This document shows, piece after piece, positions 3,708-62,925 of a stretch of DNA of 64,000 bases. The notes beneath the pieces are model-generated. The model did no database searches, had not been told where the DNA came from, and saw only the letters and a program-made list of their open reading frames with translations. Position 1 is the first letter of the stretch. Every line of letters begins with the position of its first letter. Source of the stretch: Macrolepiota albuminosa (taxonomy: Eukaryota; Basidiomycota; Agaricomycetes; Agaricales; Agaricaceae); the NCBI GenBank assembly GCA_027475525.1, contig JAMWFC010000126.1, forward strand, positions 124,001 to 188,000, read 5' to 3'. Position numbers and translations under genes: made by a program.

Positions 3708-4709
3708 GGGACAAGTCTGAGTACGTCTGTCTCTTGCATGTTTTATGGAGCTCAGGAGCCATGCTACTCGTTGGGGAATCACAAAGTCATCATGCGATGC
3801 GTCGTGGACTCCTAGTTCTTGAATGGGGAATTGCGGCTGACCCATTTTTCCTTACAGCCATGTTCATCTTCCTTTTGGAAAACTGCTAACACAAGGGTCC
3901 GGAGTAATCCGCGACGGGTCTCGCCCAAAAGATCAACATTGTTCATAAATAGTAATATGTTGTAATACCAGTAACATATACATAATGGTTATCAAGAGCG
4001 ACGATGTTCAAAGATGTAAATCTTTCATCAGAACTTCATGTCTGTTTCTATTCGGACGGACTCTTGGAAATCGAGAGGAAACGAAGAGCCATGTAAATCT
4101 TTCATCAGAACTTCATGTCTGTTTCTATTCGGACGGACTCTTGGAAATCGAGAGGAAACGAAGAGCCAGTTGGGGTTGGAGATAATTTTGATCCGGCGAT
4201 GTTGTGGATCACTCCATGTGGTCTATCATTTAAGGGGTGGGAGGGTGCTCACCGCAGAACACCGGTATGAATACCACAAAGAATGGGCCGTTCCCTCACG
4301 AGGTTGCACCAAGTAGCTCCACGGCTCATGTGCAAGTCACTATTCAACCGTGTTTTCAACTATGAATATAATTAATTCCCTTCTGCTTTTGGACAAAGAC
4401 ACTAGTCGTGTGGTGAGTATAGATATTTACTCGGGTCTGATACCCAAAGAGTTGTTACATAAAGACAGGTGCTGTTGTCGATGGTGCTCATCATTTCCTT
4501 GTAATTCAGTGACAGATCCTTGTTCTTCTACAAAAATTACATGAAAGATTACATGAAAGCACAGGTATCCCATAGTTACTGTTTGCGGATAACTCAGTCT
4601 TCATCTGACTAAGATAATGATAGATTTATAAGAGGGCCACGCCCTAATGCCCTTGTAGGTCATTGTCGAACCACCTCATTTAAAGTTCCTTGCAAGTGGT
4701 GCTCTTTTA
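3708..4709. other. Spacer between DIRS remnant and GMC gene
   Basis: Up to about 3960 there may be a decayed tail of the recombinase element, and a LEWGIAADPFFL-like string can be read. Beyond that I see no gene. The stretch contains the tandem duplication at 4014-4167 and presumably the promoter of the GMC gene, though I see no convincing TATA box close to its start codon. Confidence 0.4.
4014..4167. repeat. Perfect 77-bp tandem duplication (1 of 18)
   Basis: Copies 4014-4090 and 4091-4167 are identical and directly adjacent. The period of exactly 77 bp recurs through the window and is probably an assembly artefact; see the finding on 77-bp duplications. Confidence 0.95.
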
Positions 4710-7251
4710 ATGTCTTCTGACTATGTCATCGTTGGAGCTGGCCTTAGCGGAACAGTCCTGGCGGCAAGGCTCTCAGAAGATCCTAATATCACTGTCACAG
4801 TCCTGGAAGCGGGTTCTGCCCCCTTCCACAGCGAGAATATTGATACTCCAGGTGAAGTTCACCAATGAATAACATTTGTTCGGACAGTTCTAATGCTTGT
4901 ACTTTCATCAGGTTACCTGCTGAACACCCTGGGAAATCCAGAATACAACTGGGCGTTCTTCAGTACCCCGCAGAAGCATCTTGGCGATCGACCCGTGTTT
5001 CTGCCAAGGTAAAGTTCAACTTTGAAGGTGTGGGATATTATTTATATCCAGCACAGAGGAAAGAGTATTGGAGGTTCAACTCTGGTGAGTCCTCGGAATC
5101 ATCCCGACATTGTATCCTTATCCTAACGATCAGTCTAGTTGAACTTCCTGCAATACAATCGGTTTGACTTTTCGCATAAACTCACAATAGATGGTTTATA
5201 ATTGATGGTTTGATCTAGCGCTCCATCTATCGAATACGATGGTTAGACCAAGTGCATTGCTGAGTAAAACTCGTTCCTGACTTAACTTTAAAGCGCTTGA
5301 GAAGCTAGGTTCTGAAGACTGGACATGGGACAACCTCGTTCCATATTTTAAAAAGGTCCGTCGAAACTGGCACGGCTTTGTCTTGGCACGCGATCATCTG
5401 CATCTACAGTCAGAAACTCTTAAGTACAAGGAAGAATATGCGAGGAAACATGGATACAATTTTAATGCGGACTTCCACGGAACGTCTGGTCCCTTGCAGA
5501 AACGTATCCCTGCTTTCTTCAATCCTGCAACCGAGCCTTGGATCGAGGGAGTAAAGGCACAAGGCATCAGATTTAATCCGGATCCAGTGAGCCGAGGGAC
5601 TTGATGAATTTCTAACGATGAACTCAACTTTTTTCTACATAGTCCGCTGGAGATATCACTGGTGTCTGGCGTAACTTGATTACTGTGGACGATCATTCGA
5701 TGAGGAGCTCAGCCGGAAGTGTGAGTTATACTTCTTATGGAAGCGAGCAGATGTGTGATTGATAAGCATGTTAGGCCTACTATGAACCGAACCAGTATCG
5801 TCCTAACTTGAAAGTCATCTCTGGTGCTCTTGCGACTAAAGTCTTGATGTCGGGGAACCACCCCGCTATCGCCGACGGGGTCGAGTATCTAAAGGATGGA
5901 ACTTTACAAACACTGCATGCAACCAAAGAAGTCATCCTGTGTGCGGGTAGCTATAAGACACCACAAATCCTGGAGCTGTCTGGTAAGTACTTCCAACGGA
6001 ACACCCATGCTTAGAACTCGGGAATTTCCAGGACTTGGCGACCCAAAGATCTTGGAAAAATCTTCTATTGACGTTATTGTCGACCTACCTGGTGTAGGAA
6101 ACAACCTTCGTATGTCATTTCAATCTGATATTCGCCATGGTTCACGATAACAATTGCCTGCAGAGGTAATAAACGTCGCAATCAGCGTAACCCGGTACTC
6201 TAAATTCATACAATTAGGACCATATCAGTGCAACCTACACTGCGAAATTGAAGCCAGGCCTTGAGACCTGGACAAGGATGGAGGATCCTGCTTTCGCTCA
6301 AAGGCAGGCAGAACTCTTGTGAGGCTTCTCTGGGTCTCAAATCATCCTTTATACTAATCTAGGACCTTGATAGCAAGACGGGTGGTACAGGGATGCTAGC
6401 TGGAGGACCGGTTGCATATGCATTCTTGCCTTTCAAGGATTTCGACAAGGATGGAGCCTTAGCGGACTTGGTCAGCAGGATGTCTGTGCCAAACACGCCC
6501 ACCTTCAACTTGCAAAAGGAATGGATTAAAAATGATCGCATCCCGTTCCTTGAGTGAGTTGTGGCCTTTTTTCTTTCGAAGGATTTCAAAAGTCAACGCT
6601 ACTCTTTATCAGGCTAGGTGGATATGACCGATTTATGCCCGGAACCCTTCAGGCACCTGAGCCCGGTGTCGATTACATCTCGTCCTCTGTGATCCTTCTT
6701 CATCCGTTCAATCAAGGATCTGTCCACATCTCATCTAAGGAACCCACTGCGGTTCCTGTTATCGATCATAACTACTTGGATAACGAGCTCGACATTAAGA
6801 TGTTGGTCAAGGGCTATAAACTCGTCCGGGATATTTTCAACAGTGACCCGCTCAGAGCCCTAATTGAGCAAGAGGTCTCTCCCGGGCCTGATATCCAAAG
6901 TGATGAAGAGATCGCTGAGTACGCAAAGAAGGTAATGGGAAGTACCTTCCATCCCATTGGGACGGCGAGCCTCCTGCCTCGTAAGGATGGAGGAGTGGTT
7001 GATGCCCGGTTGAGAGTTTACGGAACGAGAAAACTTCGTGTGGTTAGTGCTTTCTGAGCGTTGAGGCAGTCACACAGCTCATTGAAGTCAAGGTTGACGC
7101 CTCTATCCTGCCTTTCGAGATTGGTGCCCCCCTACAGGGAACCCTTTATGCATTCGCTGAGAAGGTATTACTTCCCTCTGATGCTTCTGTCGCCAACTGA
7201 TTAGCAAATTTTCAGGCCGCAGACCTCATCAAAGAGGATTCCAAGAGATGA
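4710..7251 (+). CDS. GMC-family FAD-dependent oxidoreductase, 16 exons
   Basis: Exons: 4710-4851, 4912-5008, 5057-5084, 5139-5161, 5219-5241, 5294-5355, 5410-5586, 5643-5720, 5775-5982, 6032-6109, 6164-6165, 6218-6318, 6363-6553, 6613-7042, 7093-7164, 7216-7251. All introns are GT-AG and 44-60 nt long. About 582 aa, normal for the family. The N-terminus has the FAD dinucleotide fold ([16 protein letters not shown], then an acidic strand end VLEAG). [10 protein letters not shown] is GMC signature 1, [13 protein letters not shown] matches signature 2, and [16 protein letters not shown] holds the catalytic His. Family members oxidise alcohols, aldehydes or sugars with O2 or quinones; the substrate here is unknown. 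Oddities are a 2-nt exon, one missing base at the 6318 junction, and a Pro where the second active-site His/Asn usually lies ([11 protein letters not shown]). No signal peptide is evident, since the FAD motif starts at residue 5. Confidence 0.9.
6164..6165 (+). other. Candidate 2-nt micro-exon (AG) of the GMC gene
   Basis: Exon 6032-6109 ends in phase 1 (GVGNNL plus C), and the next clear exon starts at 6218 in phase 0 ([11 protein letters not shown]). Between them lie gtatgt...ctgcag (6110-6163, 54 nt), the two bases AG, then gtaata...aattag (6166-6217, 52 nt). C plus AG gives Gln, restoring the family pattern GVGxNLQDH. Both introns have the size typical of this gene. Confidence 0.6.
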
Positions 7252-21765: not shown

Positions 21766-22041
21766 CAATTCACACAGTACTGCCAAAGAGGGATGTGTGT
21801 ATCACAAGAGCTCTCCTCTATCCGCTCTGGGCTCACCCAAGCTCTCCACAGGTCCTCTTATCTAAAGAAACATTGTTCCCTACACACACTCTCTTGAGAC
21901 ATCCTCTGGCATCACTCGCTCATAACATCGTTTTTCATTTCATATTATCATGTTCCATATGGAGTTATCAATTTGCCCTTTGTCTCTTTTGTTCTTTGTT
22001 CTAAGCTCAAAACTATTTTCAACACGCAACAGACACAAGAC

Positions 22042-23215
22042 ATGGACACTATGGAAGATAAATCACAGCAAGCCATGCCAACTGCAACGGAGTATGAAAA
22101 ACTGTTGGTCGAATTAAAGCAACGTCTGCACAATCCAAATTTCTGGAAGAGACTGGTTTGTCTTGCAGAAGAATCAGGTGATATTTGCAAAGTATGCATG
22201 TCATTTAATGTGCTATTGGAACAGTATCCAAATAGTGTGCGTGGCCTTGAGGTGCCTACTTTTGCGTATCTGACAGTTGTTTTTTCTTTCAGTCTTCTGC
22301 ACAATTCCGCTATGTTTTTTATTTCCTACAGGACCCATCAACGTATGATGAAGCACAAGATCTCTTTAAAAGGTTTCTCACTAAATCACCAGAAGTACCC
22401 TTCTGGGAACTCTACCTAAGATATGTTAGGTAAGGTGTTCTTCCCTATTTATACATCTTCTCTTGTGTACTAATTAGGCCATAGACGTGTTAACACTCGA
22501 TGGGAACCGGTTCGTGAGGCGTAATTTATACATCTTCTCTTATGTACTAATTAGGCCATAGACATGTTAACACTCAATGGGAACTGGTTCGTGAGGCATA
22601 CAAGTTTGCGATCTACCATATTGTGCACAACAGGGATAGTGGCCCTATCTGGATGAATTACATTCAGTTTTTGCATCTTTCATCAAACAACCAGCAAAAG
22701 ATATATGTGTTGAGGGAAGTTTATCATCATGCAGTTCAGGTTACCTTTGACAGTGTCAAATCCTTGTGGCAAGATCTCAAGAGTTTTGAGGACAGCCTGA
22801 ATAGAACCAAGGCAATGGAGGTTATGAATAATCTCTGGCTGGCATACAGGCAGGCCCTCCTGACCTTCCATCAACTGTCAAACCATGTTTGCGCACTCAT
22901 ACCCACACCTGCCCCTACATCTCTGGACCGTCCAGAACTCGTTTTACCTGCTCTCCTCATACTCGACACGTTAGAGCACTCAATCCTTGCAAGATGGAAA
23001 GCTTACCTCAAGTGGGAGGAGAGTGATCCTTTAGAGCTAGACCAGAGAGGCCAGTCTGCCACCCTCATGTCACACATCTTCCGATCCGAATGTGGTATCA
23101 CGATGACATCAAGTCCATGGCCTGTCTGTAGCTGGAAAAAGTGGGAAAACATCAAGAAGCCTTGAAAATCTCAGAGATGTGGGTCGGAGCCGACCCAGAC
23201 AAGTATGCAGTCCTT
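22042..23215 (+). pseudogene. Rna14/CstF77-like HAT-repeat protein, 5' part only
   Basis: ATG at 22042 (MDTMEDKSQQAMPTATEYEK) leads into half-A-TPR repeats: NPNFWKRLVCLAEESGDICK; after an intron, DPSTYDEAQDLFKRFL and PEVPFWELYLRYVR; after another, VNTRWEPVREAYKFAIYHIV, SGPIWMNYIQFLH and SLWQDLKSFEDSLNRTKA. WKAYLKWEESDPLELD matches the conserved core. Rna14 (CstF77 in animals) scaffolds pre-mRNA cleavage and polyadenylation. The copy decays after about 23090 (VGKHQEALKISEMW in another frame) and ends near 23215, so roughly the second half is missing. Retained introns show DNA-level duplication. Because Rna14 is normally essential, an intact gene is expected elsewhere. Confidence 0.68.
22448..22601. 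repeat. 77-bp tandem duplication with transitions between copies
   Basis: Copies 22448-22524 and 22525-22601 differ only at a few sites, all G-to-A or C-to-T in the second copy, most of them at CpG. The duplicated segment covers the end of an intron and the start of the next Rna14-like exon. The first copy encodes the expected residues (RVNTRWEPVRE); the second does not. Confidence 0.9.
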
Positions 23216-23865
23216 GATTGATTGGTCGCCTTCTATTGCTCAAACATCTTTCTTTAGGGTCCTGATGGATGCCAAAGTCTACTGTCGATTCAACAGGTTA
23301 AGTCTTAATGATCAAACACTGAGGCAAGTCCACTCCCATGCAACAACAGATTCAGTCTTGGTAATGATACCTTGAGACAACAGTAATATGGATCATTTGT
23401 AGTTCAGTGTTGGTTGGTTGGCATTGATACTGGTTATGCCTACAAAAATGCCTACAAATATTCTCTTTTTTCATGTCTCTGTTTTCTTTTCAGAAATTAA
23501 GATTTTGCCTCCCTAAGACTATTGATCGTTTAAATACTCAATTCCTGCTACTTTAGTAGTGGCTTTTTTGTTCGTTCAAAATTATCATTGCCTCTTTAAT
23601 GCTAATTTCATGATTATTTGGTTGAATATGTTGGGCATGTGTCGCTTTCTATTTGTAATTGGCTGAGATGCTTGGCCAAACAGACAAGTGTTTCAATGTG
23701 TCTTTTCAATTTTTCAAAAGTACGAGCTCTATTTCATTCATTGTGGCTGGTAGGAACTACAAGTTATTTCTGGGTATGGATCGCTCTCAGATGTATAAGT
23801 ATCTGGATTAAGTATCTGATTCATTTCACATTCTTCAGTGTCGAGTTCCTAAAAATGACTCACAT
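23216..23865. other. Gene-free spacer
   Basis: AT-rich sequence between the end of the Rna14-like fragment and the next relic. I see no gene, RNA or terminal repeat. Confidence 0.4.
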
Positions 23866-25218
23866 GCGCGTTGGAAACACAAAATTTAGTTCCTATCATT
23901 GGTTTACAGATGTAATATCTACCACAACAAACTTGGAGACTTACTTCGGGCCAAATACATCTGTATATGTAGGTTTGGAATCCTTCTAATGTATCACCGC
24001 CGATCTCTCTTCTAGAACCTTGCCGTCTTCATGTGTCAATCGGAAAACATGCAACATGTGACCTCCTCAATTGATAATCTCTCGCTGTTTAGAGTGGATA
24101 TGCTAGGAGACGTGGCCACGATGACCATGGCTGGCATCAAGCAAGTCCAAGAGGCTCGTTTCAAGGCACTCAAGCTCTACAGATTGTTGGACGTATACAG
24201 TATGATGCTTAGCAATCCTCTTAGGCCATCGTCGTCTGTGTTAATGGTTGATGTTCCATACCATCAGAAGACCGTGAGTGGTTCTTTAACTTTTTAAAAG
24301 CTGCTGATATTATCTGTTAGCCTCTCAGATCATTGAACAACCTTCAGGAAATCATCAATCTATTTGCACAAGGTTTGGATGATCATCTAAAATCCCTTCA
24401 TGACGCCTCTTGAACGACCTTCAGGAAATCATCAATCTATTTGCACAAGGTTTGGATGATCATCTAAAATCCCTTCATGACGCCTCTTGTGGCTTGGAAA
24501 CAAATCATTTTTCTACATCTCCCAGTCATCTCTTGGTGCTGTACACAGAATTGATTAATCATGAAGGAAAAAAAGACATCATAAATACCTTGATCAATCT
24601 CATGGTAGCTGCCATACATGTTGGTCTGATCTTGGGGGTCCGTTTTCTTCTTCTTGAGTCTTTTTGGCTTGTAACAGCATTGCATCACAGGGAAACCTTT
24701 CTGTTCCATCTGATGCACTTAGTGTTGGATGATTGATTGTTGAAAGATAGGCTTCATATGAAATTGAATATTATGGAATTCACCCAAGTGCACTTTGCTC
24801 TCATAGTGGAAGCGATGCCAATTGTAAAGCACTTGATCTTTTGATAGAACATAGTCAAGCAGGATGGTGCCCGAGACACTTCCACAATCAGCTAGACCTG
24901 ACATTAACCACATCACCCTTGCTCTTGCTATTGCCATGGGAGTATTCAGAGATTGCTGGAAGAGAAAGCTTGCTTGATGTCAGTATTTGTATGTCTATAA
25001 TGTGATAACTGATGATACCCTAACCCTGATCCATCGCAGATGTGGGCCATCTTGGGTGTCGTAGCTTGTCCGCCAGAACTCCACGAGGTGGAACAACTTG
25101 TATAGAGGGTTATTTTCAACATAGCAATGGGCGGTATCCTCCTAGATGAATTGGCTATGGCATTGCCAGAATTGATAGATACCGCCCCATCAGCAACCAA
25201 GAAATGGATCAATCTTCA
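23866..25218 (+). pseudogene. Relic of the N-terminal module of the JmjC gene
   Basis: The pieces match, in order, the N-terminal part of the minus-strand gene at 41400-46232. FSSYHWFTDVISTTTNLETY matches FSSYSWFTDALLVTEDLPLR. EARFKALKLYRLLDVYSMML matches DARFKVLMAYRVLDVYELML. GKKDIINTLINLMVAAIHVG matches GKKNIMTTLINLTSAALHLG. HNQLDLTLTTSPLLLLLPWE matches HNCLYIALSVSPLMLLHPRE. QMWAILGVVACPPELHEVEQ and AMGGILLDELAMALPELID match the segment before the linker. It stops at about 25218, before any JmjC sequence. Stops and frameshifts (e.g. 25110) indicate decay. Function unknown; the module is helical with no motif I recognise. Confidence 0.7.
24334..24487. repeat. 77-bp tandem duplication, one mismatch
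   Basis: TTGAAC(A/G)ACCTTCAGG... to ...GACGCCTCTTG is present twice at a 77-bp offset, with one A/G difference. It lies inside the relic described above and duplicates the LQEIINLFAQGLDDHLKSLH segment. Confidence 0.92.
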
Positions 25219-28118: not shown

Positions 28119-28379
28119 CTTTTCCTGAGGTTGTTGGTTCAATCCTCTAGAAGTGTTACACAGCCTTGCTGACTGCAACGAACAGTGTATAGGTACCTCA
28201 ATAATCTTGAAGTTTATTCTCCTAGTCAGAGTCTGAGTGTCTGTTACTTGGTTCAAAATCAGCATCTTGCAATTTGGCTACAGTATCATTCAATAGAACC
28301 TGATCTGAATCTGTGCTTTTTCTTTGTGTATAACTCTGAACTTTTGCCTGTTGGGATTAGCAACTCTTTTTGCACATTT

Positions 28380-28533
28380 TAATGTGCAATAGGCTCTCTC
28401 AATTTTTGAGTCTTCTTTCCTCTTGAAATCTAGACTGAGTACATAATAATACTCCTTAATGTGCAATAGGCTCTCTCAATTTTTGAGTCTTCTTTCCTCT
28501 TGAAATCTAGACTGAGTACATAATAATACTCCT
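28380..28533. repeat. Perfect 77-bp tandem duplication
   Basis: Copies 28380-28456 and 28457-28533 are identical (start TAATGTGCAATAGG). No gene is affected. Confidence 0.95.
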
Positions 28534-28946: not shown

Positions 28947-29100
28947 TTCCTTTTTCTTTTATTACTTGTATTTTATTAATTTTATTTATTGTATGTATGT
29001 ACTCTTCTCTTCGTTCTTTATTTTTCCTTTTTCTTTTATTACTTGTATTTTATTAATTTTATTTATTGTATGTATGTACTCTTCTCTTCGTTCTTTATTT
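28947..29100. repeat. Perfect 77-bp tandem duplication
   Basis: Copies 28947-29023 and 29024-29100 are identical T-rich sequence (start TTCCTTTTTC). Confidence 0.93.
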
Positions 29101-29144
29101 TTTTTATTACTTTATTATTATTATATATGGTTATTACAGTAATT

Positions 29145-35600: not shown

Positions 35601-38600
35601 ATTGACCGAAAGAGGACAATGGCATGCACACTTTCTTATATGGCTTATTGGTGCACCTAATCCTTCTGATATTCATATAAAACTTAAAACCGAAGCTGGT
35701 TATGCTCAAAAGCTATTTCAATTTTTTGAAAATATTATTCATCATCATCTTCCTAATATTGAAATAGAAATCGATCCAAAATATGAACCACGAATCGAAA
35801 GACCTCCTCATGTACCATCTTCAAGATCTGATGAAGATATTCAAGATTGGAAAGATTTGCTTGATGTAGAAATTAAAAAATGCGGAGAAGCTCTTCAACG
35901 TCATAATTGTAGAGCTGTTTGCCACAAATTTGGAAATGATAATAAGTGTCGCTTTCGATTTCCACATGATTTTGTTCCTGAATCTAAATTTGATCCAAAT
36001 ACAAATTCTATTTATTTACTTTGTCAAGATCCTACTGTGAATTATTTTAATCCAATTATTCTTGTATATTGTCGCCATAATCATGATTTAAAATGTATAT
36101 TATCCGGAAAAGCAGCTAAAGCAGCGATGTTTTATATTACCGACTATATTACAAAGTTAGATCTAAAAACTTATCAAATGTTGTCTCTTTCTATCTCGAG
36201 CAGTTCTTAACATGAAAGATACTATAGATTCTTCAAGTTCTAAAGCTAAATCCAAATTGCTTCTTCATAAATGTTTATCTCAACTAACTAAGCAACAACA
36301 AATACATGCTCAACAAGCAGCTTGGTATATTCGGGGTCGAGGTGATAGTTTTTCTTCTCATAAAACAACACCAATGTTATCAAATCTTTTACTTTATTAC
36401 GTTAAAACTTCTATCAATGCTATGAAAAATACAAATGAAAAAAATGAAGATTGTAGTGATGAAGAAAACGATATTGAACCTATATCATTAAAAATTAGTG
36501 TAGATATTAATGGAAATCTTTTAAAAGCAACTCAGATAGATGATTATATTTATCGTGATTCAGACTTGTCTAATATCTGCTTTTATACTTTTGTTCAGTG
36601 TTTTCGAAGAGAGCTTATAAGTACTTCAAAATATAAAGGTACTAATACTATACGATTAGGTGCGTATAAACGCTGGAGACTGAAAAGTCCACATCCTTTA
36701 TGTGATACTCATGATTTAGTAGAGCATACTAATTTTGAGCGTGGAGATGGTTCTAAGCTACTTATACCTTATTTAATTGGAACAAGTATTCCTCGATCTA
36801 CTCATTCTGATTATAGTATTTTTATGCTTGCTCATTTTAAACCTTTTAGTGATGTTGAACCTTTACTTCTTTCACATGAAAATCCTGATGATGTATTCAG
36901 TATGTATAATTTTACTGAAATGTCTAGAAATATTATGAAAAATTGGGATGCTATTTATGAATGTGAGGATGAAAGAGATGCTGAGAGACTTCAAAAAAAA
37001 GAACAAGCTTTGAAAGAATCAAAAGTATTCACGGAACTAGCAGCTTCTTCAAATGATACTTTATTTATTCCAGAAAACTCAGGTCAAGTAGTTCAAAAAG
37101 ATTTTCAATTAAATCAAGAACTTCTCAGACTTCAAGCAAGTGAATGGTTCTTAGTCGATGCAGAAGTTAATAAAAAAATAGACACTTCTGTATTATTACC
37201 TGCCGTAAATATTAGTAATTTAAAGATTTGGAAAAGAGAAGTCAAACTACAAGAAGAATCTTTAAAATCTCAACGAAGGAACATTCTGGATCCTTTAAAT
37301 CAGACAGCAATTATCAACAATGCATCTGAAACCGAATTAGTTTCTACTTTACCTAATATAAAATATTTATCTTCTGCTAATATATCATCAAATGCACCTA
37401 CACCTCAAACAAAAAGTTTAAATAACATTAATAATTTACACTTTGAAAGCCGTAACAATCTGATCGAGCACATCATTTCAGAAGAAACTTTAAATGAAAA
37501 ACAATCAATTGATGATGAAGTAGCCGGCATAAATAATGTTTTATCACCAAATTATCAACCTTATTTGCGCCTTCATCTTTCAGGACCTGGTGGTACTGGA
37601 AAGACTCATGTTGTTAAAGCCGTACAAAGAGTTATGGAAGTTTATCAATGCAAACAAAGATTGCGCTTTTTAGCACCAAGCGGTACTGCAGCTGCACTTA
37701 TTGATGGATTAACTATCCATAAAGGTCTATCTATCAAAGTTCAGAAAAAAAATAAAGGAAAAGGTAATCGAATACCTGGTGATTCTAAAGAAGATTATTC
37801 TGTTATAATGACCGTTGCTGAAAAAAGTAATCTTTTTGAAGAATTTAAAAATGTTATAATGCTTCTTATTGATGAAGTATCTCTGCTTAGCTGTCATTTA
37901 TTATCAGATGTAGATTGCTCTTTACGAATAGTAAAAGGTAATAATGAACCATTTGGTGGAATTTTGGTCATTTTTTCAGGTGATTTTTATCAATATCCAC
38001 CTGTTGGAGGAACTCCTTTGTATAAACCTGTAACAAATTCTACTAATATGTCTTCTCAGCAATTATCGACTCGTCTTGGTCGGTTAGTATGGAAATCGGT
38101 CACTGAAGTAATAAACTTGGAAGAGCAACAGCGCATGAAAAAAGATCCTGAATATGCTGCAGCTGTTTTACGGTTGCGAAAGAGAAAATGCACAGAGGAA
38201 GATGTTGAGTTATTCAACAGTCGAGTGATTAAATCTTTTGAAAATCCAGATGGATTAAATATGAGTTGTAATAATAGACAATATTCAACTGCAATAGTGC
38301 AAACTAACGATCTTCGTCAGGCTATAAATTTTCAAAAAGCAAAATCCATTGTTCAAGGTAACATTGATATTTGTGCTGCGAATGACACAGTTAAAAAAAA
38401 AACAATATCAGAACCTGCTAGATCTGAACTTTTAAAACTGAATGTTTCTAAGTTTGCTAGTGAAGGCGCTTTACCTGGTTTTCTTCCTTTATATATAGGA
38501 ATGCCTGTTGTTCTGCGCAATCGAAATCTATCTACTGAATTAGGTATTATAATGGTGCTCATGGAATATTGAAGAAATATGACATTGAAACTTGTTCATC

Positions 38601-44300: not shown

Positions 44301-46232
44301 CTGTTATACTATTAATAAATGAGGTCGGTTGTGAAGGAATAGGTGCAACGATTAAAGGATTATTTTGAACCAGTCGAGGCACGTCGTTATCCGCAATCGA
44401 CATGTTTCCAATGAAAGAAGTTGGTGGTAATTGAGAAGAACCAACAATTGGAGGTAAAACTTCTTTGTCGATCGGAAACGGCAACCTACAGACATAGACA
44501 ATTGAGACAGCGTAGAGACACGTTTAAAGCGTGAGTATCCTCAACAACCATAACGGCACGGTGTCGATCAGCCTACGAGACGAGATGATTGAGACAGCGT
44601 GGACACACGTTTAAAACGTGAGTATCATCAACAACCGGTAACGGCACGGTGTTGATCAACCTACGAGACGGAGACGATTGAGACAACATAGACACGGCGT
44701 TTGAGGCATGGATATCCTCAACAACCGGTAATGGCATGCTGCTGTTCAAAGTATGTAGCGGATGATGTAGATGCAGATGACGAACGGAAAAGGGTAAATC
44801 GCCATAAGAAATTTCAGGTGTTTGTTCGACCTCTGACTCACGAGGAGCTCTCAATAGACGGGAAGGACTAGGAGTTCCTTCAACTAGAGAAAGCCAATCA
44901 GGAGCGGCTTTGAATACAACTCCTTCCAAATCCTGAAATGCTATGGCAAGTTCGTGCATGAGGTCACCTCCCAATGCAGCGGAAAACAGGACCTTCCATA
45001 ATGCTCTGTCCGCTGTTATAATGGCAGGTGGACGTTCCAAACCACCAATATGTTTCCACAACTATTTAAAATTTATAAGTCGTGAATAAGCTGTATATAC
45101 AACTATATAAAAGAATGACTCACATTGAATACTGTTTCCTTCGCACCAACTTCATTGTATTCTCGAGGATGGAGAAGCATCAGCGGCGATACAGATAAAG
45201 CTATATATAAACAATTATGAAGCGACCTGGTATGGCCCCGGACTCCCGAAGTATAAGATTCACGAATGTATTTGACTTCAGCCTGGTCACTTTCGGAGCT
45301 GAAATAACAAATATTAAGATTTGTGAACAAACGCAATAAGATACATTTACTCCGAAGCAATCATATTTTCCAGAGCCTTCATATCAGTCGGAAGTGACAA
45401 ATTCCCCTGTATATGCTGTGTTAGAATGAAAAAAAAAACTTCATAATAATACCAGAATAAATGCCTTGAGAAGACATCCCAGATGTAAAGCAGCAGAGGT
45501 TAAATTGATCAAAGTTGTCATGATATTTTTTTTTCCGACGTGCTTTGCTAAACTCGAATAAAGACGCACCAACGGTCCGCTAGAAATAGGCGGAGCCGCG
45601 GCATCGACGATTGTTTTATCTCTGCAGGCCTTAGCACGAAGTGCCTGTATATGTTTTTTAAATGCTTTATGGGACTTGCCCAACAGTAAATATATATTAT
45701 TCAGTGATCCCATAGGCTATGAAACATGAGAAGTATAATTACAACAAACAGTGCAAGATGAGTATAAAGCAGCATAATTTTATCAGACGACGTACCGCTT
45801 TCTGATTGTCCGCTATAGGTCCAAATGTTGTAGGAGGTCTAAGAGGACTGCCGAGCATCAACTCGTATACATCGAGTACACGATATGCCATAAGCACTTT
45901 GAACCGGGCATCCAGCAATGTTTTTTCAGGAACCAACGTGACTTCTTGACTGTTCATAAAGGCACGAAAAAGCGAAAACTGGTCGTCTTTGTGCACTTCC
46001 ACAGGCTTACACTCCTCATTGGATATACATTTGACAAGTTTCTGAAAACGAATATAAAGCAAGAAATCAGATCACTGACAACATGGAAACTGTCAGTACA
46101 ACATACGTGTACCAACGTATCTTCTCCATATCGCAAAGGAAGATCTTCCGTTACAAGTAGTGCATCAGTGAACCACGAGTAGGATGAAAATGTTTTATTA
46201 AGTATGCGTGGATGACGGTGAGATGCAGGCAT
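41400..46232 (-). CDS. JmjC-domain protein with unknown N-terminal module (multi-exon)
   Basis: Starts at ATG 46232 (MPASHRHPRILNKTFSSYSW). The N-terminal module (46232-44830) is helical: FRAFMNSQEVTLVPEKTLLD, DARFKVLMAYRVLDVYELML, GKKNIMTTLINLTSAALHLG, ALWKVLFSAALGGDLMHELA. A linker with tandem VPLPVVDDTH-type repeats follows (44480-44760), then a basic stretch (KYTRKGRANATAPQRPSSIS), the JmjC domain (43270-42580) and an acidic/serine-rich tail (DDESSDQDVDDAGMHQSSDS). JmjC enzymes are Fe(II)/2-oxoglutarate dioxygenases, usually histone demethylases. Introns are short. I cannot resolve every splice junction, and the N-module and JmjC part could be two adjacent genes. A diverged N-module relic lies at 23866-25218. 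Two inverted MITE copies bracket the gene. Confidence 0.65.
42580..43273 (-). CDS. JmjC catalytic domain within the large minus-strand gene
   Basis: SAHHYWHIDSNGFGTFIKVE contains the HxD pair that binds Fe(II), followed by GIKLWYIARPK, where Lys and aromatic residues match the co-substrate side. IEVVVLEPGDILYMRPNLPH leads to the distal His, and PSICLGGHYYLASTLMDSII closes the cupin fold. All three metal ligands appear intact. Upstream LEEDLTWFYSLDKSV and FYDSTNCTIAEQLKTHSAVL are part of the preceding helical region. The downstream exons (EAFQDVYAVFLAHQAHVLIL and following) are helical. Confidence 0.78.
44480..44760 (-). repeat. Degenerate tandem repeats of about 90 bp in coding sequence
   Basis: Three diverged copies of a unit encoding LINTVPLPVVDDTHVLNV-like residues lie in the linker of the JmjC gene. 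They differ at many sites and in frame, so they are old natural repeats and not the 77-bp type. Confidence 0.75.
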
Positions 46233-50370: not shown

Positions 50371-50630
50371 CAGACTGTATATATGAAATGGAAAAGAAAC
50401 CTATTAACCTATGCAAAAGAAAGGGATAAGATCCTAGTGCCAAAGTATATCATGGAGAAAAAGAAAATCAAGTTGTGAAGAACCAGAAGCTAGATGACCC
50501 AGACCTTGATGATGTAGAGAAAACAGAGACGGTTAAGGAAATAACAAAGAAACTGGAATCTCTTGAGAGGAAATATCACATGGCTAAAAGAAAGAAAATT
50601 GCGATTAAGAACAGGTTAGAAGGAGAAACA

Positions 50631-50784
50631 ATGTGCAAGTATTGCACAACATCCAACAAACAAGCGGTCAATCCAGAGACATAATATATGCCTTCATCAT
50701 TCAAGAAATGTGCAAGTATTGCACAACATCCAACAAACAAGCGGTCAATCCAGAGACATAATATATGCCTTCATCATTCAAGAA
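50631..50784. repeat. Perfect 77-bp tandem duplication in the LINE
   Basis: Copies 50631-50707 and 50708-50784 are identical. Removing one shortens the LINE frame by 77 bp and restores the reading order MCKYCTTSNKQAVNPET to the KESPNISLPAYKSN segment. Confidence 0.95.
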
Positions 50785-52544
50785 AGAAAGCCCCAACATA
50801 TCTTTGCCAGCATACAAGAGCAACTCAATTAAGATGGCCGAGATAGCCAGAAATTACCATAACAAACTCCAAAGTAAGCGCAAAGACATCACAGACCAAG
50901 AACATGAGGAGAAGACCCTAAAAGTTCTGGGCACAATCAAGGCTTGCACATCGGAACAACAAAAAGAAGACTTGAGCAGTACAATTGAAATGAAGGAACT
51001 GCTGACGGCACTACAGCTCTCAAATAATAGCTCAGCACCAGAACCAGATGGGATTCCATACCAATTCTAGAAGTCCTTCAATAACAAGTTTATAAATGAC
51101 TCAACGCAGAACCTAAGGATTGTAAATCGTTAGCAGCCTCCCTCAAGGAATCCCACCTAAAAGGTTATGATATCCCAGGCCATGCCAAAAAGTTAATTGT
51201 GAACCTTTTTGCTGATGATACGACTACGTTCCTATTGATGGAAGACAACAAGCAAGAAGAGCAGTAAAGTTTATGTGGGCTGGGAGGAGCTCCTTAGCTA
51301 ATGAGAAAACAATGTACGAGCCCTTCAATAGTCGACATCAGAACAAGAAATAAAGCAATGTAGCTGAAATCTTACTTGAAATTCAAAACAAACAGACCAC
51401 TATGGGCCTTGATGGCTGATGCAATCACAGCCGACAACACCCTGAAGTCGGAAGAAATAGTAGACAAGCAGATTAAGGTATCACTGTTCCTGCAATTATG
51501 GAAGACAAAGGTGACTGTGCATGAGGGGACACGAGCCCGAATATAGCTTGCTTATTTATAGTGACAGCGGAGTTTAATGTAAGATTTGATGACTTGCCTT
51601 CATCAACAGGGAAATCCTGAGGAAAATGCCGATATGGTTACGGTATCATGTAGTCGCTGATGACCCAAGCAAGCGTCAGAAAAATAAACCATGTGAAGGC
51701 AGCGGAGTGCCTCAAAAGCAAACACAAATTGGGGATACAGAAATATTAGATATTAGAGGGAAAGATAAAATGCGATATACTTACCTAGATTCCAACTGCG
51801 AGTGTAGTGACTGCATGAAGTTAGAAAACTAAGTTGGGTGCATGCACCCAGCCTCGTATATTAACCGAGCAAAAGACATGCTCACATTATAGTCTCGACA
51901 AAAGCAAATGCCAGGAAGTGGTTTTTAAATGCGACACTCTACCAAGGCCCAGATAGAACAATAAAAGCAATTGAAGGAATAAAGAAGGTTGAAGAAATAA
52001 AGGAGGCAGTGATGATGGTAAATAAGAAAATCCCAGCCTACGTGACGAAGATCTTTCCAGAACAATGAGGGTCTTCCTGTGGAAATGTCAACACAATGCG
52101 TACAAGGTGGGATCATACTGGGACAAACAAACAATGAAGCTCGACCTGAAGAGCTGGAGGATATGCAGCCATGATGGTAAAGTAAAGTAGACTCTCTGGA
52201 TCACATTATCACCAAATGCTCCCGTGTTAGTCAGGAGATTGTATGGGAAGAAGCGAGAAACGTATGGAGAAGAAGAATTAGGGAAACATGGCCAGAGCAG
52301 AATTTATCCACCATACTAGGCAGCCCTCCGATGAAGATTACGGATGCTGAGAGAAGACTTTCCCTAGGTCTGACCCGGATACACAAAATATTGAACCTAG
52401 AAGCGACCTATTTTATATGGACACTATAATTAACAGAGTAATAAGAAAAGATGAAGATGATAGTCCACATTCACCAATAGAAATAATTAACAAATGGAAT
52501 AAAACTCTTCAAAAATCACCTCCCTTCTCTAGTAGAAAAATCTG

Positions 52545-52884: not shown

Positions 52885-53038
52885 GGTATTCCTGATCTCC
52901 AGAAGATCTGATTCTAACAACATGTTCCTCAATTGTATAGTTTATTCTAATCCGTCCATCCGGTATTCCTGATCTCCAGAAGATCTGATTCTAACAACAT
53001 GTTCCTCAATTGTATAGTTTATTCTAATCTGTCCATCC
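52885..53038. repeat. 77-bp tandem duplication, one mismatch
   Basis: Copies 52885-52961 and 52962-53038 differ by one C/T (CCG in copy 1, CTG in copy 2). Non-coding context. Confidence 0.94.
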
Positions 53039-53350
53039 GTCCACTCCATCCCCCCCTTGCGACAACTACTCAACCTGGTTGCCTATGTGACATACACGTA
53101 CTGCAATCTATTCTGATTTCTGATTCTTTGACAACTCCACACTTATATTATTTTGTATGTGAATCCTACTTGTGATATACTATTCCACCCCTTTAGCTAG
53201 GAGAGTCCCCTCTGAGTCGGATGTCACTAAGGCGTCATAAGGCGTTCACACTTAGGAAAATGAATTCACACTCCGCTACTCTGTAAAGAACTAGTCAATG
53301 AGACTGAGACGCGAAAGCCTTTGCTTTGAATTGACAGGCATGACAACTGG

Positions 53351-53504
53351 CTTGACCTTTTGCCACTAAGGGACTCAGCAATGAGACTTTGTCTCACTCT
53401 AGACTAAGTCAAAAATACATTAGGTAACTTGACCTTTTGCCACTAAGGGACTCAGCAATGAGACTTTGTCTCACTCTAGACTAAGTCAAAAATACATTAG
53501 GTAA
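53351..53504. repeat. Perfect 77-bp tandem duplication
   Basis: Copies 53351-53427 and 53428-53504 are identical (start CTTGACCTTTTGCC). Non-coding context. Confidence 0.95.
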
Positions 53505-53612
53505 CATTTGTTCTATGTCTTATTTGAAGTATTAGGATAGCTGGTTGCGTAAAAAATTGTATTGTCCGACTAAAAAAGGACTCTACGCTAAAGGGTGGAA
53601 TACATTTGGCAA

Positions 53613-55128
53613 TTATACGAAGTCTGCTTTGTCTTCTACTTCTTCAATTTCAATGTATTCATCATCTATTGGCAGATCAACCACGTCTTTAATCCACATC
53701 GGCAGCAAACGTACTGTAGCAGCACAACAATTGGCTTCTTCAGGGTCAGCAAGCAAAATAACGTCTTGGATGTTGAATGAAGTCGTGTCTCCAAAGTGGC
53801 CCTTGTAGACGCTGACTGTGAATGTAGCAATAACAGCGGACCAGTTTGCCACATCAACGTATGCATGAGGCAATGACTGATATTTTTCAAGGTTGAATTT
53901 TTGGTGTCGCCCATCATAAACTGGTACTAGAATCGTTATTCAATTATAATAAGCCATAATAGAAAAAAGTGAGTGAATTTTATGGCTTACCTGAATCTCC
54001 ATATGGTCTTACTGCATCAGACCAAGATAACTTGGTCTGGCTGCGATCACCCTTCTTTGTTGGAGAAGCAGGAGCTAGTCTTGTGGATGAACCCGGTTTG
54101 TCTAAAGAGTCGTTAGCTTTCTATATTAAGTGATGGTCATTAATTATACTGTATACCTGAACGACTCGTGCTCTTTCTCGTGAGCATTGTTGTAAGGGAG
54201 ACACCATCCTGTTGCGTGATTACTGACAAATTCTCCTTGTTGGAAACCGCTCCAATAAAGGCCATTGCACAAGGAAACGTGCGATCTGAAAAAGCAACTG
54301 ATATATAATGTGGGTCTCCTTCGTCAACCAGATGGCTAAACATGACCATTCCAACAAGATAAAAGACGGAAAAGTTTCGCTTGGCTGTAGAAGATCTTTT
54401 TCGCTGGAAGACAAATCCTTGTTGGAAGTCTTGAGGGTTAGCAGCCACGAGATTGACGACTTGAACGAAGATCTTTTTCGCTGGAAGACAAATCCTTGTT
54501 GGAAGTCTTGAGGGTTAGCAGCCACGAGATTGACGACTTGAACGTTACTTGATTTAGGTACACGAACGTCCAATTCCATAAGACGACTTGCTACACTAGG
54601 AAAGGAGTATTCGAGATTGACAACAGCCTCTTCGGATACTTGGGAAGTTTTGGTGTCATAGCATGTATAATTGATTGCTTCTAGAACGATAGGTTGTGTG
54701 TCGTCGGACTTGGCATCTTGCCTAGAGTAATATATAAAAAAAGTCAGCTGATAAAGTGAAGTGATCCAAATATTTTGACTTACATATTTTGTGAAGTCGA
54801 ATCGTTTATGAATTCAGCGTAAGGTAGTTCAGATACAACATCTTTAGCATGTAGCATTCTATAGATTATAGTTCAATTAATTGCGGTGGTTGCAAAATAT
54901 TCAACACGTACTGATTGCTGGCACTGGCAATATTTTTTCCTTTATCAAGAATATAACTCAAACCGCTTTCGTCTGTCTCTTCCCTACAATGTCAATAAGC
55001 CTTATCATATCAAGAAAAGGGGTACGATTGAAAACAAACTTCGAGTCCGACTTATTAATATCTTCTTGCATGTTAGCTTCATTGGAAGTCATTCGCTTGT
55101 ACTTCTTCTTTGTTTTCTGCTCTAACAT
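53613..55128 (-). CDS. Uncharacterised 387-aa protein, six exons
   Basis: Start ATG 55128 in a good context (GCTACCATG). Exons on the minus strand: 55128-55040, 54983-54912, 54858-54784, 54721-54157, 54116-53991, 53926-53613, all GT-AG introns of 40-64 nt. With the 77-bp duplication 54390-54543 collapsed, the coding length is exactly divisible by three and open throughout; with it, exon 4 is out of frame. The N-terminus is charged (MLEQKTKKKYKRMTSNEANM). The middle reads LVAANPQDFQQGFVFQRKRS and LVGMVMFSHLVDEGDPHYIS. A proline/serine/lysine-rich hinge (STRLAPASPTKKGDRSQTKL) precedes a last domain with YVDVANWSAVIATFTVSVYK and an acidic end (DDEYIEIEEVEDKADFV). I do not recognise the family. 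Divergent neighbour: the gene at 56090-57627. Confidence 0.75.
54390..54543. repeat. Perfect 77-bp tandem duplication breaking the 387-aa gene
   Basis: Copies 54390-54466 and 54467-54543 are identical. The unit lies in exon 4 of the minus-strand gene and shifts its frame; collapsing it restores the frame. Confidence 0.96.
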
Positions 55129-55500: not shown

Positions 55501-55850
55501 GTAATTTTTAGTAAGTTTCAACGTGTTAACAAGCAATGTGGCCTATTTCTATCAAAAGCAGTCTGGTAATTTTTAGCAAGTTTCAAGTTTTATGTTAGCA
55601 AGCAATGAGACCTATTTCTGTCAGAAGCAGCATCAGAAGATCATCAAAAGTATCTTCTTTCAAGTTTTATGTTAGCAAGCAATGAGACCTATTTCTGTCA
55701 GAAGCAGCATCAGAAGATCATCAAAAGTATCTTCAGTGGCGTTTGCAACGTCATTTTATATCAAATTAGAATTAGAAGTATAGAATAGAATTAGAAGTAG
55801 CATCACAGGATCATCAATAGCATCTTCGGTAGCGCTTATCATTGGTGCAA
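55501..55850. repeat. Older degenerate repeats plus a perfect 77-bp duplication (55581-55734)
   Basis: Copies 55581-55657 and 55658-55734 are identical. They sit in a zone of older diverged repeats: GTAATTTTTAGTAAGTTTCA at about 55500 and a variant at 55565, and GATCATCAA(A/T)AG(T/C)ATCTTC at about 55640, 55717 and 55812. The older repeats are natural. Confidence 0.85.
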
Positions 55851-56089: not shown

Positions 56090-57627
56090 CAAATGCAATC
56101 ACTGTCGCAACTTTCCATGGATAAGAGGATTGAAATTTTGAATTGCAAAGATGCAGGAAAGTCAAAATACACATGTGATTTCTCATTATTCTGATGATGT
56201 TTTGTATTCATTATAGTCAATCAAGCAACTTCTTTTGCTCAAAATACACATGTGATTTCTCATTATTCTGATGATGTTTTGTATTCATTATAGTCAATCA
56301 AGCAACTTCTTTTGCGAACTTGCGACTCAGGTGCCTCCCTTTGTCGCCAACTTGCATACTATGATACAATGCAGAAAATTGAAGAGGCATTTGAAGTCAA
56401 GTCTGTCACTGGTGGCTTTAAATGTCTTGTTTATCGTGGAACGGATTTGGAAGTTTTGCTTGATTTCTCTGGCTTTATTCTAGAACTGGTGGCTTTAAAT
56501 GTCTTGTTTATCGTGGAACGGATTTGGAAGTTTTGCTTGATTTCTCTGGCTTTATTCTAGAATTCAGGCTTCTCCTCTTCCAAACAATTATCGGTCTGTT
56601 GCCATATTTGCTGTTATTATTCAATTTTAACTTATTCAAGCTATTATTTAGTGTTTGCCAACAATTATCGGTCTGTTGCCATATTTGCTGTTATTATTCA
56701 ATTTTAACTTATTCAAGCTATTATTTAGTGTTTGCCAAAACAAATCCAATTCATTAAATTACTTCGTTACCATTATCGCACCAAACAATTGCGATTACTT
56801 TGATGACGATTTAGCAGCACTAGATCTTATTTTCTCTTATTTCAATGGAACATTTGCCGAAGGTGATATGAATGCGTATAAACCTTATCAAGTTCTTCCG
56901 GGGACACATGCTATTTGCCCAAAGACAAGGATTTGTACACCAAAAGGGCAGAGTCATTCGCTCACTGAAATAGTACTTCCTGAGGTGGTAGACAATCACG
57001 GCGTTCTTACTGGTCTACTTCAGACTAGTAGATATGTACATACTGATGACAATATTATTGTCTTTCATGAACTAGTTCCTAACCATGGAAGCAGGTAAGT
57101 TTGCTTTTATTGATCAATTAATTGAAAAATAAAGCAGTCTTTATAGGCAGACGTACAAGCAGATTGCTTATCCTGGAGTTTTTCGCATCGGGCAACTTGT
57201 TGAAGCAAGTATCAGTTTTCGCACCGTCAAGATTGGGTGAAAGAATGCACCATTAATTCATCTAGATAAGTTACTTCTTGTTGCTAAACATGGAACTACG
57301 GTGAGACCCCATCGAGTAGAGTTTAAGTGCTATAAACTAAAACTTTTACTATCAGTTATGCTAAACATGGAACTACGGTGAGACCCCATCGAGTAGAGTT
57401 TAAGTGCTATAAACTAAAACTTTTACTATCAGTTATTGAAAATGAGCTAGCTAATCAGTCTTGCAATCTTGAATCTGCAGTATTCGAGGAGTTTGGAAGC
57501 GTCATATTGATATTGATGAAGATTTTCCACTTCGACCTACAAAGCGTACAAAATTGACTAGTGAGGCAGATTTTGATGAGGATGAAGACTTTCAAAGGGA
57601 GGCGCAGTACCAAGATGAATTGAATTA
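56090..57627 (+). CDS. Uncharacterised protein gene (plus strand), probably multi-exon
   Basis: After collapsing the 77-bp duplications, plausible exons read SIKQLLLRTCDSGASLCRQL, AYYDTMQKIEEAFEVKSVTG, GFKCLVYRGTDLE, then ASPLPNNYRSVAIFA, NYFVTIIAPNNCDYFDDDLA, AALDLIFSYFNGTFAEGDMN, VLPGTHAICPKTRICTPKGQ, VLTGLLQTSRYVHTDDNIIV and, after an intron at about 57095-57150, QTYKQIAYPGVFRIGQLVEA. It ends RTKLTSEADFDEDEDFQREA..., stop 57627. The VFRIGQLVEASISFRTV segment resembles uncharacterised multi-copy mushroom proteins I have seen. A TGA after TVKIG (57238-57240) and an unresolved junction near 57430-57480 mean that it may be a pseudogene. The 5' end is not defined. Divergent from the 387-aa gene. 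Confidence 0.5.
56162..56315. repeat. Perfect 77-bp tandem duplication
   Basis: Copies 56162-56238 and 56239-56315 are identical (start TCAAAATACACATGTG). It duplicates an intron-exon junction of the plus-strand gene. Confidence 0.95.
56408..56561. repeat. Perfect 77-bp tandem duplication
   Basis: Copies 56408-56484 and 56485-56561 are identical. It duplicates the GGFKCLVYRGTDLE exon segment. Confidence 0.95.
56583..56736. repeat. Perfect 77-bp tandem duplication
   Basis: Copies 56583-56659 and 56660-56736 are identical. It lies 22 bp after the previous duplication and duplicates the NNYRSVAIFA segment. Confidence 0.95.
57282..57435. repeat. Perfect 77-bp tandem duplication
   Basis: Copies 57282-57358 and 57359-57435 are identical (start TGCTAAACATGGAACTAC). 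It duplicates a probable exon-intron junction of the plus-strand gene. Confidence 0.95.
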
Positions 57628-57720
57628 GTATGCTACTATAAGTTGCTTTTTAAAGTACATGCTGAGAACTCTATATATTCTTCAAATTGCGGTCTGAATG
57701 AAGTGTATGTAATTGTTGAA

Positions 57721-57875
57721 TGCAATTGAATATATTCACTTTGAATGAAATAAAAGAAAAACACAGTTACATGCAAAAACAGGATTGAAAACTTTGCATG
57801 CAATTGAATATATTCACTTTAATGAAATAAAAGAAAAACACAGTTACATGCAAAAACAGGATTGAAAACTTTGCA
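57721..57875. repeat. 78/77-bp tandem duplication with one-base indel
   Basis: Copy 1 (57721-57798, 78 bp) and copy 2 (57799-57875, 77 bp) differ by one G (CTTTGAATG versus CTTTAATG). Downstream of the plus-strand gene. Confidence 0.93.
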
Positions 57876-59089
57876 CAGAAGACCCTCACAACATTGTCTA
57901 ATCTTTCAAAAAAAAAATCAAGTATTATAATTTTAGGAGTAAGACTTGTTTCTTCTCACTCAGCTGTTTGCCCATACACAAAGTCTTACATTCCATTTGA
58001 CAATCTTCAAACACATTGCAACGATTTATCGTCGAAAAAGCTGAGATCCATTACTTTGGCTACTCTTATCCACATAGGATGCTTGTGCCCAAGAGCTTGG
58101 AAATATTGAGCTAAACATAAAATTATTCATTGATATGTTGGGTCATGGTTCCGAGATATAGCATAGATAGATTGTAGATCGAGGTTATTCCTTGCATGTC
58201 AGAAAATGTCTTCAATTTTTGAAGCCACGTGTTTAAATATTTAAGCTTAAGCTTTTTAAGCTTTAACTAAGATATGTGCTACGTTATCGCTTATTAGGAA
58301 TAGGAATATATCAATTAACTTATCTTTCAGTAAGTATATTCATCATTCAACGAGAAGGACTAGTAAAACATACCAAGTTCTGACAAATATCATGACATTT
58401 CGTCGTCCTTATCAGAGCTGCCAGTCATGTCTACTCGTCATAGTTTCAGAATAGAACGTAAATTCACAACCACTGCACTGCCATATGCACACTGTACATG
58501 CATTCTTTAACAAATTACCTAACAAAAAATGAATTTTTGAAATCAATTTGACTCATTTACACTAGCAGCAAAGTATGACGCTTTCTTAACACTAGAGATC
58601 TTTATTTAATAATATTAATGAGAGTGCCCTCATTTACACTAGCAGCAAAGTATGACGCTTTCTTAACACTAGAGATCTTTATTTAATAATATTAATGAGA
58701 GTGCCGTGCCAACAGCAAAATAAACATAGTTGAGTACTCATTCTCAACACAATTTTTGGATTCGAACCAAAAGTCATTATCTAATTCAATATTACCTGCA
58801 CAGCCCATCTCAAGATTGACCAGGTGGTACATCTCAGATCACACACTCAGACTATTAGTATGTCCAATTACCTCTTCTGCAATGACTATTTTTTGATGAT
58901 GTGCCTCCAACAAACAACCACCAACTTGAATCCACAAATGCCTTCAACAAATCACGCAACAAAGACTCATCAATCCACTTTGTAAATCCAACGCCCTTCC
59001 ATCCACCAACGTCTTTTGCAGTACCACCTCTTTGAATAAACACACCAAGTGCTAAGCGCTTATTTCTCAACCTTTTCGAATTCAGACCA
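57876..59089. other. Mostly gene-free stretch
   Basis: No gene I can support. A minus-strand frame at 59070-58855 (GGTAKDVGGWKGVGFTKWID, ESLLRDLLKAFVDSSWWLFV) has protein-like character but no family I recognise and no partner exons. A plus-strand frame at 57894-58109 is likewise unassigned. The 77-bp duplication 58552-58705 lies here. Confidence 0.4.
58552..58705. repeat. Perfect 77-bp tandem duplication
   Basis: Copies 58552-58628 and 58629-58705 are identical (start CTCATTTACACTAGCAG). Non-coding. Confidence 0.95.
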
Positions 59090-60099: not shown

Positions 60100-60379
60100 A
60101 TATACAGTTATACCCGGTATATGTAGTCTAAACTGTACATACAAAACGAAATTTCATCCACACTGTATATAAATAAACAGAGCCAAAAAAAAGGTATATG
60201 TAGTCTAAACTGTACATACAAAACGAAATTTCATCCACACTGTATATAAATAAACAGAGCCAAAAAAAAATACATACCTATGGCGCAGACTACACCACCA
60301 AATCAAACACCACTCCAAAAAAAAAAAAAAAAACAAAAAAAGACAATGTCAAGGTCTAACACCAAACCAAACGCTACTC

Positions 60380-60413
<34 letters not shown>

Positions 60414-60540
60414 CAATGTCAAGGTCTAACATGCCTATACAAACTAATTATAATGGAAGCCGTACAGACTAATTATGATGGAAGCCACTCTTTCCATAAT
60501 ATGGACTCTGACGTGAAAGAGTGCTATGGTGTTCCCAAAT
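60100..60540. repeat. Unclassified repeat related to 27595-27960, with poly(A) tracts
   Basis: Shares ACTGTACAT...AACGAAATTTCATCC and the ATACAAACTAATTATAATGG / AATATGGACTCT parts with the 27.6-kb repeat. Two ACTCC-A(n) tracts (about 60312 and 60376), each followed by GACAATGTCAAGGTCTAAC, give a 70-bp direct repeat and look like retroposon tails. Confidence 0.55.
60116..60269. repeat. Perfect 77-bp tandem duplication
   Basis: Copies 60116-60192 and 60193-60269 are identical (start GGTATATGTAGTC). Confidence 0.94.
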
Positions 60541-61356: not shown

Positions 61357-62925
61357 ATCATTACATAAGTGTTCGTCCCCATGAACAATTACATAAGTGT
61401 TTGTCCACATGAATGATTACATAATGATTTTATTATTATTATTGTATATAATGATCATCATTATACGTAATACATACGTCTCTTTCTTTCCTCCCTGTCT
61501 TTTCTTAAAATTTTTGATTTCAAACTATCTTACTGCTAGCTTGCTCATAGGTCATGTTACTGCACAACTCTGGAAATGCTATATCCTCGTCGCTTCTTCT
61601 GCTATAACAAACTGGTACCGTCAGTCTATGTTGTTACTGCACAACTCTGGAAATGCTATATCCTCGTCGCTTCTTCTGCTATAACAAACTGGTACCGTCA
61701 GTCTATGTTGTTGTGTACTCACTCAACGGACACCTACTTGGAGGCAAACACTATCAATCACTGTGGTTCAACTTGGTACTTATTACTGCTCGTTGCGAGC
61801 TAGAATGCTTCGATAGGTAAAATTCTGACAATTAGTACAATGTAAGTACGACTTCAGCCTGTTCAATCTATGGATCTATGCGGCTTGAAACGAATCTTTT
61901 CTGCAAATGCGACCATGGAAAAACCGTTGTATTACTCGAACAACTATACAATGAAGCCTTATATATACCAACCTGCTAAAACAACCAAGATGTTCAGTGA
62001 CATTAAGTATGACTTTAGTAAACACTCACTCACTTATACAAAAATAACTGTACGCGGTCGATATTTCCTCTCAACATCACTTCATATACGTTTACTTTTT
62101 TTTGGTGTATAACGTTGAACAACGTCTTCACACAACATCCATGTCTAAACTTCCACACGTTGATGGTATACAGTGTTGGCACCCGCGCACGTCTCCCTAC
62201 TCCTTCGGCGGAAGACAAATGAGAGAAATTGCGGACGTTGGGTTCACCATTGTCACTAGACAGTACCTCGACGTTTTAAGTGGTTATAACGTCAAAAATC
62301 TAGTATTTTGGTCAGTTTTTCTATTTTACTTTATATTAGCGCTTTTTTTACATATTGTATGTAACTTTCTAATGTTAGCTCTTATACCCATCACAACCCA
62401 CGTGCGCAACACCTCACTCTAAAAGGATTCAATACAAACCAACAATTAGTTGCTGCCTTTCATATACATTGTAGCGACGACAATCAATACCTTGACAAAG
62501 TGTTCACTTACGCGTATTCAGGCGATTCATACAGCTGGACGGTGGAAAATATCATTGTCAAGCACGTCATTCCCAGCCACGTAACTCGACACCATATTTT
62601 CAATACAGCTTCAAAAATTGTTGTAAGTCTTCGTTTACTCTTCAAGTTTACTTCGAACTCATTTTATTACAAGTGCACGTATATTATTACAATACAAAAC
62701 GATAACGACACACCAATAGGTAGTATTACTTTTTTTTCGTAGATAAGTTAACTTTCATTTTCACGATTATAATACGCTATATGTTTTTTTCAAACAGATT
62801 TTATTTTATTTATTTATTTTATTATATAATAATATTATATATATTACGTATATCGTACCACTTAATGTATGTATTCATATCATATCATTTATCATTATCA
62901 TATCTATATCTATACATACATAATG
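61357..62925 (+). mobile_element. Unclassified repeat X, copy 2
   Basis: Inverted, closely similar copy of 29145-30634. The outer end has three tandem ATTACATAAGTGTTCGTCC-type motifs. Frames include NDYIMILLLLLYIMIIIIRN, MDLCGLKRIFSANATMEKPL, KMFSDIKYDFSKHSLTYTKI, MREIADVGFTIVTRQYLDVL and SYSWTVENIIVKHVIPSHVT. They suggest one spliced gene of unknown family, interrupted by a T-run frame break near 62100. It contains the 77-bp duplication 61555-61708, which copy 1 lacks. Confidence 0.6.
61555..61708. repeat. Perfect 77-bp tandem duplication inside repeat X
   Basis: Copies 61555-61631 and 61632-61708 are identical. The corresponding place in repeat X copy 1 (about 30365-30445, minus) has the sequence only once. 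Confidence 0.96.

Follow-up and report, generated by a model that had tools for sequence, protein, structure and literature searches.

Tandem duplications in the window

The stretch described here, hereafter the window, comprises 64,000 nucleotides of Macrolepiota albuminosa (GenBank assembly GCA_027475525.1, contig JAMWFC010000126.1, positions 124,001 to 188,000 of the forward strand) and carries 18 short tandem duplications, in each of which a word of about 77 bases stands twice in a row (doublets; Table 1). Matching each base exactly against the base p positions further on, for p = 20–1000, gave 17 duplications at an offset of 77 and one, at 57720/57721, that starts with an offset of 78 and continues at 77 after a one-base indel. 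In the window, 77 was the sole period between 20 and 1000 at which exact runs reached 90% of the period length, which excludes chance as the source of the doublets. An earlier reading of the sequence alone had reported 18 direct duplications, most of them perfect, with 17 offsets of 77 and a single 78 caused by a one-base indel. Its counts were reproduced by the offset scan, its description as mostly perfect agrees with the exact run of 77–81 bases seen in 14 of the 18, and each of its places was returned as period 77 by Tandem Repeats Finder, in which this period accounted for 18 of 32 rows (the other 14 had different periods and shorter or less perfect arrays). The list was complete for exact runs of at least 20 bases at period 77 (18 found), and all of its places were recovered, though some start positions moved by one base (e.g., 22447, 24333, 28379 and 50630). 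Tandem Repeats Finder also reported 2.9 copies of an 87-base unit with 82% match at 44482–44736, unlike the near-exact, two-copy 77-base doublets.

Table 1. Tandem duplications of the window, in window coordinates, with the exact run and the state of the same site elsewhere in the assembly.
Feature	Position	Remarks
77-bp tandem duplication	4014..4168	exact, 78-base run
77-bp tandem duplication	22447..22600	5 mismatches in 77; same place also doubled in four sister loci, undoubled in further ones
77-bp tandem duplication	24333..24489	near-exact, 73-base exact run; single in six further loci by match coordinates, matched straight through in two
77-bp tandem duplication	28379..28533	exact, 78-base run; five single-copy sister sites
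77-bp tandem duplication	28947..29102	exact, 79-base run; 77-mer undoubled at 7 occurrences in compared loci; one sister doublet ~11 bases off
77-bp tandem duplication	50630..50785	exact, 79-base run
77-bp tandem duplication	52885..53039	near-exact, 68-base exact run
77-bp tandem duplication	53351..53505	exact, 78-base run
77-bp tandem duplication	54390..54544	exact, 78-base run
77-bp tandem duplication	55581..55734	exact; same place doubled in L013 and L014, near-identical stretches of contig C89
77-bp tandem duplication	56162..56315	exact
77-bp tandem duplication	56408..56562	exact, 78-base run
77-bp tandem duplication	56583..56738	exact, 79-base run
77-bp tandem duplication	57282..57436	exact, 78-base run
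77/78-bp tandem duplication	57716..57875	one-base indel
77-bp tandem duplication	58552..58705	exact; 77-mer 17 times in the assembly, 2 here and 15 elsewhere
77-bp tandem duplication	60116..60269	exact
77-bp tandem duplication	61555..61712	exact, 81-base run

Spread over the assembly

The assembly comprises 100,137,612 bases in 129 contigs, with the window on contig C27. We sampled C27 with ten stretches of 10 kb, and C114, C110, C106, C65, C89 and C6 with ten more. These 20 stretches, which were not chosen at random, make up 264 kb together with the window, or ~0.26% of the assembly. Period 77 stood nearly alone beyond the window as well, in line with the sequence-only reading: among 58 near-exact tandem duplications of period 20–2000 in the 264 kb, 57 had period 77 and one had period 23. 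The 20 stretches contained 43 period-77 duplications with an exact run of at least 60 bases, found in 14 of them (21 in stretches of C27, 22 elsewhere) and on six of the seven contigs sampled. Extrapolated from 43 per 200 kb, the whole assembly would hold ~21,500 doublets if this non-random sample is typical. A count over 38 loci, some of which overlap or repeat one another, gave 80 events of period 10–600 with a run of at least 30 bases, 74 of them at period 77, four at 61, one at 28 and one at 23; the four period-61 events belong to a local array in L013 and L014.

The intervals C89:1556292-1562815 and C89:1588658-1595195 (L011–L014) look alike, lie ~32 kb apart in one contig and agree in both the sequence of their doublets and the locus positions of these. 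They may represent a large duplication of recent date, or else contigs that were placed a second time.

The lengths of the exact runs were examined in the 264 kb. Among 53 runs of at least 77 bases, 28 had length 77, 19 had 78, five had 79 and one had 81, compared to ~29, 15 and 6, and 3 for 80 or more, from chance extension at the base composition of the window. Blind joining of contigs implies that the match extends beyond 77 only by chance, and the 53 runs gave no sign of microhomology at the junctions beyond chance. Real tandem duplication would be expected to produce a range of lengths, often with microhomology at the junction; what we found was one length only.

Sister copies elsewhere in the genome

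Large parts of the window recur at sister loci in the genome. Many of the matches to these loci break at the doublets, with both parts overlapping by ~77 bases in the other locus, which thus has a single copy. The 69 pairs of locus and junction, which are not independent and whose counts are inflated by near-identical loci (such as L006/L007, L011/L012 and L013/L014), fell into 35 with a single copy (overlap 75–83 bases), 15 matched straight through and 19 partial, with at least one single-copy sister at 14 of the 18 junctions. A further two junctions had single sisters on other evidence, 24333 from match coordinates and 28947 from undoubled occurrences of its 77-mer. Eight of the 15 straight-through pairs had a 77-base doublet of their own, shifted by ~11 to 119 bases from that of the window; six had their doublet in the window's position, four of them at 22447 and two at 55581, and one had no doublet, its alignment being merely gapped.

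No clean single-copy sister was found among the compared loci for 4014 and 55581. On the left side of 4014 several matches end at or near the doublet start, and on its right side a match begins at the second copy, a pattern that would fit a join between two repeat families. At 55581, both sisters that could be judged, L013 and L014, are doubled. None of the 15 other occurrences of the 58552 77-mer in the assembly adjoins another exact copy.

Bases next to the doubled word

Contigs built from a de Bruijn graph break off at any word of length k that has several neighbors. If the doublets arose at such forks, other genomic copies of the word should differ on one side in the base that follows directly, a difference not predicted by a real duplication. 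The set used for this comparison comprised 87 doublets (run of at least 70 bases) from the window and 37 loci; five of these doublets were removed as identical in sequence to others, all between loci that overlap or are near-identical, leaving 82 distinct doublets. Those with an exact run of at least 77 bases and at least one other single copy for comparison were testable (n = 21), and in 12 of them the next base differed in one or more of these other copies. Control words lying no further than 1500 bases from the doublets, given the same treatment and the same number of possible placements, differed in 247 of 4782 cases (5.2%), making edge differences about eleven times commoner at doublets. 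In 20,000 control draws matched for copy number, the mean was 1.1 of 21 and none reached 12. The first difference lay at distance 1 in 12 doublets, more than at any other distance, and at distance 2 in 7, with runs longer than 77 blurring distances 2 to 4.

Unmerged contig overlaps as the probable source

The fixed length, the assembly-wide spread, the single or shifted sister sites, the edge differences and the absence of microhomology beyond chance leave us in hardly any doubt that the 77-base duplications are an assembly artefact, namely overlaps of de Bruijn contigs that were not merged. The sequence-only reading had proposed that contigs overlapping by one k-mer were joined without merging, a proposal now supported by the spread, the sister sites and the fork test. 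Which assembler was used, how its contigs were joined and where the imperfect doublets came from we infer as follows. Short reads would have been built into a de Bruijn graph in which neighboring contigs share exactly 77 letters, the contig ends being graph forks at which two repeat copies or two haplotypes first differ. A later step would then have ordered the contigs and laid some of them end to end with the 77 shared letters untrimmed, leaving the word standing twice. Imperfect doublets may have arisen by later base correction, or where a contig was taken from a sister copy.

SPAdes contigs overlap by k, and the overlaps lie at forks; overlaps of 77 letters are presumably what SPAdes with k = 77 would give. 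A passage of PMC12611240 lists the SPAdes default k values for 150-base reads as 21, 33, 55 and 77, and a passage of PMC5481147 attributes overlapping sequence at contig ends to SPAdes and its removal to Unicycler. As that passage describes them, contig-end overlaps resemble the doublets in being exact, assembler-made and in need of trimming before contigs follow each other (PMC5481147); unlike them, the doublets occur in the interior of long sequences, reaching megabase size, in the assembly of a eukaryote, and in most cases no bases separate the copies. False duplications caused by assembly errors are well described, though in the part of PMC9516828 concerned not of this fixed-length kind: both involve one true sequence doubled by assembly error, and those described there differ from the doublets, which are of constant length and adjoin each other (PMC9516828). 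A search of one literature library for this exact error found no description, a matching phrase in PMC12611240 being about something else, which does not show that the error is undescribed.

The fixed overlap could also stem from a program or stage of assembly other than SPAdes, for example gap filling or an assembler with k = 78 and overlaps of k-1. We consider this unlikely, while giving it a real chance, as the sequence fixes the overlap at 77 and not the program, and three loci contain 100 N each, as scaffolders leave. However, 77 is a documented SPAdes default k for 150-base reads in the passage of PMC12611240 mentioned above, and another culprit within the artefact would leave the verdict unchanged.

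Several observations weigh against unmerged contig overlaps. First, four of the 18 window doublets are imperfect (22447, 24333, 52885 and 57720). Second, six of the 20 sampled stretches, including all three of C114, contained no doublets. Third, some sister sites are not single: 24333 was matched straight through in two loci, C73 and C74:129k, the same-place doubling of 55581 in two loci also fits an inherited real duplication, and the place of 22447, itself imperfect, is doubled in C122, C53:605k, C106 and C73 as well. Fourth, the 15 undoubled occurrences of the 58552 77-mer imply that the graph must have been resolved there. Lastly, 61 of the 82 distinct doublets lay outside the reach of the fork test, its control words overlap one another and are not independent, and 9 of the 21 testable doublets showed no edge difference with few copies compared; these nine may mark forks against further copies or haplotypes outside the comparison.

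The imperfect doublet at 22447

By eye, the doublet at 22447 spans an intron end and the beginning of the exon that follows. Pfam was run on ten open frames, and the frame over the second copy of 22447 and beyond matched the Suf domain (suppressor of forked, Rna14-like) at 91 bits against a cut-off of 24.7. Its imperfection and its doubling in four other loci would also fit an inherited real duplication, and a few doublets, 22447 above all, might be old duplications that have this length by coincidence, which we regard as very unlikely. In C122 and C53:605k one copy is identical to the other; in C106 they agree at 75 of 77 bases and in C73 they are small indels apart. The second copy in the window has five mismatches. 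The place is single at C74:143k, as read from the letters, and at C53:187k and C59 by match coordinates; at C74:431k and two places in C54 the left part alone matches. Same-place doubling in C27, C122, C53:605k, C106 and C73 beside single sites elsewhere is what an old duplication could leave. Against this reading, the length is the same as that of the artefact, and the window and its sister L039 (C122) show 0 differences in the 136 positions that finish with the first copy and 9 in the 141 that begin with the second, so that the similarity changes exactly at the junction. Such a step fits a contig boundary. We read 22447 as a case in which one left-hand contig was probably used at several places, with the right part place-specific or later corrected. 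A real duplication that was inherited and then underwent gene conversion on its left side would fit as well, though less simply.

The surrounding sequence had features of its own. The region 22000–24900, with the Suf/Rna14-like gene, matches about eleven further places of the assembly at 83–96% identity. So many matches are unusual for an RNA-processing gene that is normally single-copy; the stretch may be carried by a mobile element or may belong to a set of gene copies. Within 22524–22664, eight of the nine differences between the window and L039 are transitions with A or T in the window, and by eye six of these eight lie at CpG sites of L039; over the window, CpG stands at 0.53 of expectation, TpG at 1.28 and CpA at 1.23. 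The CpG deficit and the transitions look as they would with methylation decay or mutation resembling repeat-induced point mutation (RIP). Further on, 33073–38572 holds large open frames, one with a PIF1-like helicase domain in Pfam, which resemble a Helitron.

Duplication as a genomic process

The remaining alternative is a real process by which tandem duplications of exactly 77 bp arise at scattered sites, which is extremely improbable. In its favor, doublets do occur both in repeats and in a gene-like stretch, four of those in the window are imperfect, and for two of them sister loci are doubled in the same position, as if by inheritance. Against it, 57 of 58 events show no spread in length, microhomology does not exceed chance, differences between sister copies fall exactly at the 77-mer edge, and sisters carry doublets of the same length at shifted places. 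It would also require ~21,500 duplications genome-wide (from 43 per 200 kb in a non-random sample), and most of those seen are exact and so recent. A version of this process that duplicates 77-bp stretches in tandem specifically beside sites at which repeat copies differ we hold to be scarcely credible.

What the doublets mean for the assembly

On the reading as unmerged contig overlaps, the duplications almost certainly carry no information about the organism, and the finding is a warning for users of this 100-Mb assembly. If the sampled density holds, ~20,000 false 77-base insertions would make up ~1.7% of its length. As 77 is not a multiple of three, doublets in exons would shift the reading frame and spoil gene models, and repeat families would look more broken than they are. 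Other assemblies can be checked for this error cheaply by scanning for one sharp period of tandem duplication.

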